Source of the DNA: Candidatus Saccharimonadota bacterium
Lineage (GTDB): Bacteria; Patescibacteriota; Saccharimonadia; Saccharimonadales; Saccharimonadaceae
Length of the DNA: 33,238 nucleotides
Direction: 5' to 3'
NCBI GenBank assembly: GCA_024682595.1
Contig: JAIKZA010000029.1
Location: forward strand, 1 to 33,238
Positions within the stretch are counted from its first letter, which is position 1. Every line of letters begins with the position of its first letter. Both the position numbers and the translations under genes were made by a program. Shown here piece by piece: positions 14,241 to 32,648 of the stretch. Under the pieces are notes generated by a model that had not been told where the DNA came from, did no database searches, and saw nothing but the letters and a program-made list of their open reading frames with translations.

Positions 14241-15677
14241 TTAAATCTTACGAATTTGAATCTGGTTTGTGCCGCCCTCTTCGTCGCGCAAGCCAGACAC
14301 TACCACTACCGTGAGATTGTCTTTGCCTTCTGACACTTTTAGATAGCCGCTCGCCTTCAACTCTTGAGCCGCATCTACGGCATAATTATCGCCAAATTCG
14401 CGCACATACGCCGAGTTTGCATACGTCAAAGCCAATTGTCCCGCCACGCGCGGATTACTCGTAATCGATACCATCGGAATATTCGGACGCTGTGCCGCAA
14501 TCGCCTCGGCGGTTGCCCCACTCTTGGTGGCCGTCACAATTAAGTCAGCGTCAATTTGTTCTGCCAAACGCACCACCGCACGCGAAATCGCATCATAATT
14601 CTTGTAGTTACCCGTCGTTTCCTTCTCAATTGGAAGAATACGTGAATTATCCTGTGTATAAAGAATCACCTTCTTCATCTCTTTAATTGCCTCAATCGGA
14701 TATTTGCCGTTTGCAGTCTCGTCCGAAAGCATCACCGCATCGGTACCAAGCAATACCGCCGTGGCGACATCTGAAACCTCAGCACGAGTTGGACGCGGAT
14801 TATCTACCATCGAACCTAGCATTTGTGTTGCTACAATGCAAAGCTTCGAATACTGGCGACAAAGCGCAATAAGCTTACGCTGCACGATCGGAACAATTTC
14901 TGCGCCCGCTTCGTAGGCTAAGTCGCCACGCGCTACCATAATACCATCAGTCGCCTTCACGATTGCTTCCATCGTCTCATCGTTTTCTACTGCTTTTTTG
15001 GTCTCAATTTTCGCAATAATCTGCGCCGTTGAACCATGTGAAACCAAAATTTGACGCAATTTATCGATATCATCTGCGCTCTGAATGAAGCTCATTGCCA
15101 CATAATCAAAATCGCGGCTTGCGCCAAATTCTATGTCTGCCAAATCCTTCTCGGTAATAATGTCACCACCCATATCCGTATCTGGCAAATTGATACCCTT
15201 GCGACTCATCAAGAAACCGTCGTTCTGCGCCTTAATCTTAATCGCAGTCGAGGACACAATCTCAGTAGTAATGCCCTCTACTTTTCCGTCAAATAAAAGC
15301 ACCGGTTCGCCAACTTTTACCTTTTCGGCTAAATTATATTGTATAGGCAGAATCTTCCCGCCATCATGCTCTTTGCAAGCATAATCCAAAGTTAATTCAT
15401 CACCAGTCTTCACATCTAAATGGTTATCCTTTAAATCTCCCAAACGAATCTTTGGACCCTGCAAGTCTTGCACAATCGCTACCGACTTGCCACGCTCTGC
15501 AGCATAGCGCCTAATCGTTGCAATTTGCTGATCGCGTTCGTCATAGGTGCCATGACTAAAATTTAAGCGAAAACCATTTACGCCCGCATATACCATTTCT
15601 TTCAACTTCTCTTCTGCAAATACGGATGGGCCGACCGTTGCCAAGATTTTAGTGCGTTTAAATAACTTTGTACTCAT
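14241..15677 (-). CDS. pyk: Pyruvate kinase
   Basis: KILATVGPSV, FRLNFSHGTYDER, LQGPKIRLG, MVARGDLAYEAG, ATQMLGSM. Confidence 0.97.
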   Translation of the reverse strand: MSTKLFKRTKILATVGPSVFAEEKLKEMVYAGVNGFRLNFSHGTYDERDQQIATIRRYAAERGKSVAIVQDLQGPKIRLGDLKDNHLDVKTGDELTLDYACKEHDGGKILPIQYNLAEKVKVGEPVLLFDGKVEGITTEIVSSTAIKIKAQNDGFLMSRKGINLPDTDMGGDIITEKDLADIEFGASRDFDYVAMSFIQSADDIDKLRQILVSHGSTAQIIAKIETKKAVENDETMEAIVKATDGIMVARGDLAYEAGAEIVPIVQRKLIALCRQYSKLCIVATQMLGSMVDNPRPTRAEVSDVATAVLLGTDAVMLSDETANGKYPIEAIKEMKKVILYTQDNSRILPIEKETTGNYKNYDAISRAVVRLAEQIDADLIVTATKSGATAEAIAAQRPNIPMVSITSNPRVAGQLALTYANSAYVREFGDNYAVDAAQELKASGYLKVSEGKDNLTVVVVSGLRDEEGGTNQIQIRKI

Positions 15678-15738
15678 ATCTTTAATTATACCATTAGATA
15701 GCTTGCGACATAAACTCTTTAATCAATGAAAAGGACCA

Positions 15739-15762
15739 TAAAAAATCCCCCCGTCGGGGGGG
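15739..15762 (-). terminator. Strong terminator of the unit upstream of pyk
   Basis: Minus strand CCCCCC-CGAC-GGGGGG-ATTTTTT. Confidence 0.85.
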
Positions 15763-15909
15763 AAGAGGTGCGCCATAACCGGCGCCTAAAGCTTTGGAGC
15801 GGACGACGAGCTTTCAGCGGTGCAGTCTGACTGCTGTGCTTACTTGCGCAAGAGTTGTCGCCGCTCCAATGATCAGAGTTTGGAGTGTGGCCGCCATTGG
15901 CGGCTTAAT

Positions 15910-15918
15910 CTAGAGCAT
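15910..15918 (-). CDS. Start-stop minigene ATG-CTC-TAG (Met-Leu)
   Basis: GAAGGAGG-CGCCG-ATGCTCTAG on the minus strand. Confidence 0.35.
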   Translation of the reverse strand: ML

Positions 15919-16052
15919 CGGCGCCTCCTTCCTACGAAGAGAAAGCTCGTGAAGTCCTGGATCCGGCCGGCGTCGCTGACAACGCAAAGGCGCATATAAC
16001 TTCCGACGAGCGGTTAATTGCGGCATTCGCCACGCGTTGCGCGTGGCCCCAT

Positions 16053-16061
16053 CTAGAGCAT
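16053..16061 (-). CDS. Start-stop minigene ATG-CTC-TAG (Met-Leu)
   Basis: AAAGGAGG-CACTC-ATGCTCTAG on the minus strand; same codons and spacing as 15910-15918. Confidence 0.35.
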   Translation of the reverse strand: ML

Positions 16062-16266
16062 GAGTGCCTCCTTTCGCTAAAAGTTTCCGCGAATAAATGC
16101 CCAAGGGCATTTAAGCTCACCTGTTGGGCGGCCTTTCGCTATAATTCTTCAAGCGCCAACCTCCTTTCACAGATTTTTAAAACCCTCGTGGCCCTCTCAG
16201 ATCGGCAGCCGCAAAAGCGGCAAAGCGCACGGGCAAACGGGGTCGGACGGTCGTCAGGATCAGGAA

Positions 16267-16317
16267 TTAATTGTTACTCCGGGTGTTCCGGAGCGAGTAA
16301 TTGCCATGCTTTTTCAT
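16267..16317 (-). CDS. Short leader-like peptide MKKHGNYSLRNTRSNN
   Basis: SD AGGAGGAG 6 nt before ATG; first ORF of the promoter-driven unit. Confidence 0.4.
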   Translation of the reverse strand: MKKHGNYSLRNTRSNN

Positions 16318-16366
16318 GTTTTACTCCTCCTCTATAAATGTGCGGGTTTTGTTGACCAATATCCCT

Positions 16367-16395
16367 ATGCTATCATACATTTGACTATCTGTCAA
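16367..16395 (-). promoter_or_regulatory. Sigma-70-type promoter of the unit upstream of pyk
   Basis: Minus strand TTGACA, 17-nt spacer, TAGCAT with extended -10 TG. Confidence 0.6.
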
Positions 16396-16454: not shown

Positions 16455-16530
16455 TGGTGATCACGGCGGGATTCGAACCCGCGATTGCCAGGATGAAAAC
16501 CTGGAGTCCTAACCACTAGACGACGTGACC
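16455..16530 (-). tRNA. tRNA-Glu (UUC), encoded CCA
   Basis: GGTCACG...CCAGG-TTTTCAT-CCTGG...GCGGGTTCGAATCCCGC...CCA. Confidence 0.95.
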
Positions 16531-32541: not shown

Positions 32542-32639
32542 CGATTTTATCTACAATTCTCTGGTGCACCATAGTGCACGAAGTTCGAACCATAATCGTT
32601 CGTGATATTCTCGATAGTTCAGGGCGGAAGGAGGTTAGC

Positions 32640-32648
32640 ATGGCGTAG
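32640..32648 (+). CDS. Start-stop minigene ATG-GCG-TAG (Met-Ala)
   Basis: GGAAGGAGG-TTAGC-ATGGCGTAG, same layout as the two minigenes upstream of pyk. Confidence 0.35.
   Translation: MA

Follow-up and report, generated by a model that had tools for sequence, protein, structure and literature searches.

A candidate ribosome-engaging structured RNA with tandem two-codon minigenes in the tRNA-Glu/pyk slot of Saccharibacteria

Results

A bounded unit lies between tRNA-Glu and pyk

The window, that is, the whole 33,238-nt stretch of contig JAIKZA010000029.1 that was analysed, carries on its minus strand a unit of ∼620 nt that is bounded by a promoter and a terminator and lies between tRNA-Glu and pyk (Table 1); the neighbouring genes examined were pyk and a glycosyltransferase-28 gene. 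The promoter TTGACA-17-TAGCAT, the two SD-ATG-CTC-TAG modules, their hairpins and the terminator that an earlier note on this DNA had described were all located as claimed. The −35 hexamer TTGACA occupies 16395-16390 and is separated by 17 nt from the −10 hexamer (16372-16367), which is a weaker TAGCAT in the window and TAATAT in three relatives. A search of the window's own genome for TTGAC-N15-TGNTANNAT returned 56 sites, the promoter of the RNA among them, compared to none for the reversed-pattern control; when these 56 strong promoters were inspected, no ORF-poor one resembled the RNA. The terminator (15762-15740) ends the unit 63-85 nt ahead of the pyk ATG (15677). Both promoter and terminator are retained in the relatives, with changes in the loop and arms of the terminator.

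Table 1. Features of the tRNA-Glu/pyk locus, in the order in which they are read on the minus strand.
Feature	Coordinates	Strand	Basis
tRNA-Glu(UUC), upstream bookend	16455..16530	-	
Promoter of the RNA (sigma-70 type), TTGACA-17-TAGCAT with TG extension	16367..16395	-	sequence
Stand-alone structured RNA (predicted), about 620 nt	15740..16360	-	fold, conservation, no coding bias
SD (AGGAGG) and micro-ORF 1, ATG 16317, MKKHGNYSLRNTRSNN-stop, 16 aa	16267..16331	-	sequence, relatives
SD (AAAGGAGG) and micro-ORF 2, TTG 16152, LKNYSERPPNR-stop	16117..16167	-	sequence, relatives
Minigene 1, AAAGGAGG-CACTC-ATG-CTC-TAG	16053..16074 (ATG 16061)	-	sequence, conservation, pattern search
Hairpin after minigene 1, GCCACGCG-CAA-CGCGTGGC	16029..16047	-	sequence, fold
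Minigene 2, AAGGAGG-CGCCG-ATG-CTC-TAG	15910..15930 (ATG 15918)	-	sequence, conservation, pattern search
Hairpin after minigene 2, GCCGCC-AAT-GGCGGC	15890..15904	-	sequence, fold
Intrinsic terminator, C7-GAC-G6-A-T6	15740..15762	-	sequence; kept in relatives
Extended −10 promoter of pyk, TGGTATAAT, 7 nt ahead of the pyk ATG	15685..15693	-	sequence; conserved without the RNA
pyk (pyruvate kinase), downstream bookend	14241..15677	-	

Tandem minigenes and micro-ORFs follow strong Shine-Dalgarno sites

Both minigenes have the form AAGGAGG-N5-ATG-CTC-TAG, with the same 5-nt spacing between SD and ATG, and in each the stop codon is followed after 5 nt by a strong GC-rich hairpin. Upstream of them lie two micro-ORFs that the earlier note had overlooked, and all four AGGAGG-type SDs of the unit lie on its sense strand, the opposite strand having none. 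Micro-ORF 1 is an intact 14-aa frame (MKKHGILLAPEHPE-stop) in the relatives, whereas the window copy is frameshifted by a 1-nt deletion. Also missing from the window copy is a 12-nt CCCGAAAGGG hairpin that three relatives retain.

Pattern counts in the window showed that GGAGG-N3-9-ATG-NNN-TAG occurs three times, two of them within the RNA at 16071-16053 and 15928-15910, compared to 0.16 in shuffled sequence, and that AAGGAGG is found three times in the 625-nt RNA and twice in the other 32.6 kb. Among 45 genomes of the same genus we detected 26 matches to AGGAGG-N3-8-ATG-NNN-TAG. Nine of these fall in the RNA and its homologues (two each in G000, G036 and G031, three in G026) and the other 17 are dispersed singles, many within or ending open frames; in these 45 genomes tandem SD-ATG-NNN-TAG copies occur only in this RNA and its homologues. 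When one genome per bacterial or archaeal species was searched for GGAGG-N3-7-ATGCTCTAGAT, two to three copies per contig were found only in three Saccharibacteria, and the single matches scattered across many phyla are chance.

The minigenes are conserved in close relatives

The earlier note had asked for conservation of the minigenes in relatives, and three species of the same genus (G036, G031 and G026) keep the SD and ATGCTCTAGAT in a unit that is ∼86% identical to that of the window over its whole length. SD and ATGCTCTAGAT are invariant in all nine SD-bearing copies of the four species, while the 4-5-nt spacers vary (CACTC, CACCC, TAGCT, CATTT, CGCTC, CGCCG and CGTC), a drift around fixed elements that is as would be expected for a ribosome entry site. 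In G026 a module of ∼146 nt has been duplicated whole, giving a third SD-bearing copy, and G036 and G026 have an additional ATG-TTT-TAG or ATG-CTT-TAG copy without an SD. Conservation of the minigenes covers these four species only, and beyond them the body of the RNA is wholly different. No further homologue came up when 392 genomes of the order were searched at the DNA level, and in the sister genus g27 no such RNA was found at pyk.

The RNA is predicted to fold and has no coding signature

Open frames of 62-66 aa are present in the GC-rich parts of the RNA. In agreement with the earlier claim that there is no long conserved ORF, substitutions among relatives showed no bias by codon position (11/17/17 in the 66-aa ORF and 13/11/15 in the 62-aa ORF), the long ORFs had no match in Pfam, and indels among relatives disrupt these frames.

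The minimum free energy of the window RNA was −235 kcal/mol, with z = −3.7 relative to shuffled sequences and z = −2.2 when wider bounds were taken. The four-species consensus fold contains 187 pairs, five of which vary on both sides and 23 on one side, with 28 of 748 cells breaking the pairing; covariation is therefore thin, and the predicted fold is supported, not proven. Predicted folds pair most of the SDs, whose unpaired probability ranges from 0.0 to 0.44. Rfam searches at the gathering score with the window RNA and the loci of ten relatives found only tRNA, and at relaxed E-values they gave chance-level scores and no ROOL, GOLLD or OLE. No match to phage or plasmid DNA was found. A possible pairing of CUCUAGAU with an upstream AUCU(G)AGAG was noticed by eye.

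pyk has its own promoter

Because the extended −10 element TGGTATAAT lies only 7 nt before the pyk ATG, the start site of pyk is probably at or adjoining the ATG and the pyk mRNA probably leaderless. Such a promoter is still present in genus members that have no RNA, in which tRNA-Glu is located about 70-90 nt from pyk, and a promoter of this kind is likewise seen in relatives that carry the RNA inverted. A −10 box ∼6-10 nt before the ATG, with no SD, was also seen at several gene starts of the window (760, 7927, 8544, 15677 and 21958); leaderless mRNAs look common in the window, and strong SDs look exceptional.

The same slot holds predicted RNAs of the same plan and different sequence

Predicted RNAs were found in the tRNA-Glu/pyk slot of nine out of nine members of a pyk clade with 100/99 support, and also in G005 and G015. 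In three species (G003, G024 and G014) a comparable RNA is placed in the opposite orientation. The slot units of genus members measure 380-820 nt and have a promoter, SD micro-ORFs and a terminator, and most of their bodies align neither with the window RNA nor with one another, with similarity that is weak or none. G005 and G015 are near-sister species (pyk tree branches of 0.007 and 0.009); their RNA bodies are 0.44 identical (shuffled, 0.42) and their flanks 0.77 and 0.67, and the G005 body is 0.54 identical to that of the distant G067 (shuffled maximum, 0.46). From these three species we infer that the body may have been replaced as a cassette between fixed bookends. Searches with the RNA bodies from G003, G067 and G020 revealed no second locus; two weak matches that were read proved to be coding DNA.

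Folding energies were below those of shuffled sequences in 12 out of 12 slot RNAs (z from −2.2 to −8.2). SD-plus-start sites in these 12 RNAs numbered 22 on the sense strand and one on the antisense strand, compared to 4.3 ± 2.0 in shuffles, with a maximum of 11 (n = 300). SD-ORFs across the locus tended only weakly to be shorter than those of shuffles (median 9.5 vs 14 codons, p about 0.1), and two-codon ORFs as such are in no clear excess over SD-ORFs in general. The non-alignable RNA of G020 contains a separate SD-ATG-TGT-TAA, which a hairpin follows at a distance of 4-5 nt, and the RNA of G004 in the same slot contains the five-codon SD-ATG-AAA-CGA-TTA-CCG-TAG directly followed by the window's 20-nt hairpin. 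Alignments of two or three RNAs (G067, G005 and G020) had energies below those of shuffles and no excess of covarying pairs, the alignment itself being unreliable.

Other contents of the slot were also recorded. In G008 (L147, L114) the slot holds an insert of ∼4.3 kb and no RNA, and the insert has a repetitive surface-protein frame of WDTSKVTNM type, labelled BspA-like by eye from its sequence; this insert is a sign of an insertion hotspot. In G017 (L126) and G028 (L128) the slot is occupied by small genes on the reverse strand that have a promoter and an SD of their own.

Discussion

The data are consistent with a free-standing gene for a structured, hypervariable RNA of ∼620 nt that engages ribosomes, and we put the chances of this reading at about even. 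It builds on the bounds of the unit, its conservation and fold, the enrichment of SDs on its sense strand, the absent coding signature and the independence from pyk, all of which can be read in the DNA. If transcribed, the RNA would begin at its own promoter and stop at its own terminator, and at least four strong SD sites would load ribosomes onto frames too short for protein, first two peptides of 11-16 codons and then two ATG-CTC-TAG minigenes. A ribosome that initiates at a minigene would form a single peptide bond before it arrived at UAG with its mRNA entry site up against a hairpin. There it could be held in place, or the product could be released as fMet-Leu-tRNA. In this way the RNA might capture ribosomes, or ribosome occupancy might keep the RNA folded and stable, and either might be of some benefit to the cell.

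At this locus related species have RNAs that are built alike but have exchanged bodies, so the plan (numerous sites for ribosome entry, a strong fold and no protein) looks selected and the sequence does not. The suggestion of a ribosome-occupying RNA made in the earlier note is reasonable for a discrete, structured, non-protein-coding unit with conserved minigenes, although conservation of the minigenes reaches four species only. A wider claim, which we make tentatively and with the balance tilted against it, is that these RNAs form a new class of stand-alone bacterial ribosome-trap RNA, with serial modules of SD, micro-ORF and hairpin, found at one locus across a Saccharibacteria clade and swapped in sequence like an arms-race cassette.

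Two-codon minigenes are familiar from phage, from laboratory cases and from leader elements. The lambda bar minigenes are reportedly two-codon ORFs (Hernandez-Sanchez 1998 and Ontiveros 1997, as listed in PMC8012679), and the likeness drawn in the earlier note holds for the strong SD, the ATG, the single further sense codon and the stop. The window minigenes differ in that they stand in tandem, are conserved and apparently chromosomal, and have a hairpin after each of them, all within a long structured RNA. Their second codon CTC is not rare, and since it is an ordinary codon (10.3 per 1000 codons in the window ORFs) tRNA starvation, that is, a depletion of a rare tRNA as in lambda bar, is unlikely. 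From work on minigenes, termination against a hairpin after a single peptide bond would be expected to promote either drop-off of peptidyl-tRNA or slow termination (PMC8012679). The leaders of EHEC LEE1 ler and LEE4 espADB and of axe-txe also combine an SD with a mini-ORF, and there ribosome occupancy alters RNA stability or downstream translation (PMC8708949); a ribosome retained at a window minigene might similarly shield its RNA. These leaders affect in cis a gene further along their own mRNA, whereas the window unit ends at a terminator with no downstream gene. Leader-peptide attenuators of the trpL, tnaC and erm/cat type likewise place an SD and a short ORF beside competing hairpins, but the window RNA has no regulated gene before its terminator.

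Among large structured RNAs, ROOL and GOLLD measure about 600-800 nt and are often near tRNA genes (PMC12286853, PMC5643018), and ribosome binding of GOLLD has been reported in pull-downs (PMC12286853). The window RNA resembles them in size, in fold and in the tRNA-Glu directly upstream. Their structure is kept over long distances and they are located in phages or prophages, whereas the window RNA looks chromosomal and is found in one genus, with a body that turns over and no match to an Rfam model. OLE RNA, structured and about 600 nt long, has a reported link to a ribosomal protein (PMC12054373); unlike OLE, the window RNA has neither an Rfam match nor associated protein genes.

The alternative that survives best, although we regard it as fairly unlikely, is that the slot is a hotspot for a hypervariable RNA cassette of arms-race or selfish nature, for example a phage-related decoy or a strain-exchanged RNA, with its function in the fold and with SDs that do no more than titrate 30S subunits, or that arose as by-products. 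The chance-level identity of the G005 and G015 bodies between alignable flanks, the closer similarity of G005 to distant G067 and the other inserts of the slot (the BspA-like frame, the reverse-strand genes and the inverted RNAs) all point that way. Against it, SD-plus-start sites lie far above shuffles, no phage or plasmid match and no associated protein gene were found, and there are no copies elsewhere in the genomes searched.

Less probable still is a polycistronic micropeptide gene whose peptides are the product and whose fold controls their translation. It would account for micro-ORF 2, in which six of the variable columns are at third, two at first and one at second codon positions, and for C-termini that recur in different RNAs (EHPE, SHPQ, SHPP, HPHPL and LHPNQR, and in the inverted type W-x-x-P-G-[GD]-L or SGFK, each directly before the stop). 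Proline is found within the last five residues in 8 of 17 cases compared to 23% in shuffles (p 0.03), but this motif was spotted post hoc and its statistics are weak; in addition, the best-conserved ORFs encode only fMet-Leu, and the window copy of micro-ORF 1 is disrupted.

The other function put forward in the earlier note, that of a translation-sensing leader, or else an attenuator, for pyk, would suit an RNA on the same strand directly upstream with a terminator ahead of pyk. Since the RNA has its own terminator, pyk has a separate, conserved promoter after that terminator, species without the RNA retain this promoter and three species have a comparable RNA in the reverse orientation, a pyk leader is not supported; this reading is largely refuted and we consider it very improbable. 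A decayed protein gene, to which the 62-66 aa frames might be attributed, is hardly credible for an RNA that folds strongly and whose frames lack codon-position bias and Pfam matches and are broken by indels between relatives.

In genomes of ∼1 Mb, 600 non-coding bases are costly. If the preferred reading of a ribosome-engaging RNA is true, a chromosomal RNA with several serial minigenes and no regulated gene would be a natural ribosome-capturing RNA, and its strong turnover between fixed bookends poses a testable question, namely what selects a plan without its sequence.

Additional observations

The 1-base deletion that breaks micro-ORF 1 (∼16300, minus strand) is seen only in the window genome assembly when compared with the relatives' loci L002-L004. 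In G020 (L145), two complete RNA units and a shorter third stand in tandem from tRNA-Glu to pyk, and each tandem unit has its own promoter and a GGCGCC-type terminator. In the inverted RNAs of G024, G003 and G014 (L139, L140 and L141), micro-ORFs end in W-x-x-P-G-[GD]-L or SGF[KT] before the stop, and some of these stops are followed by a hairpin of the GCUGGGC-GC-GCCCAGC type; the inverted RNA of G014 contains an internal duplication of 159 nt.

The third SD-ATG-NNN-TAG of the window (32629-32648, plus strand) was rejected as a free minigene, as it ends an upstream reading frame and overlaps a terminator-like hairpin. Five or six species have similar AGGAGG-N-ATG-NNN-TAG sites located upstream of an ORF for a tiny CxxC protein (counterparts at loci L241, L245, L246 and L247), and the counterpart in G011 has a terminator-like hairpin, GAGGCTAG..CTAGCCTC-T5.
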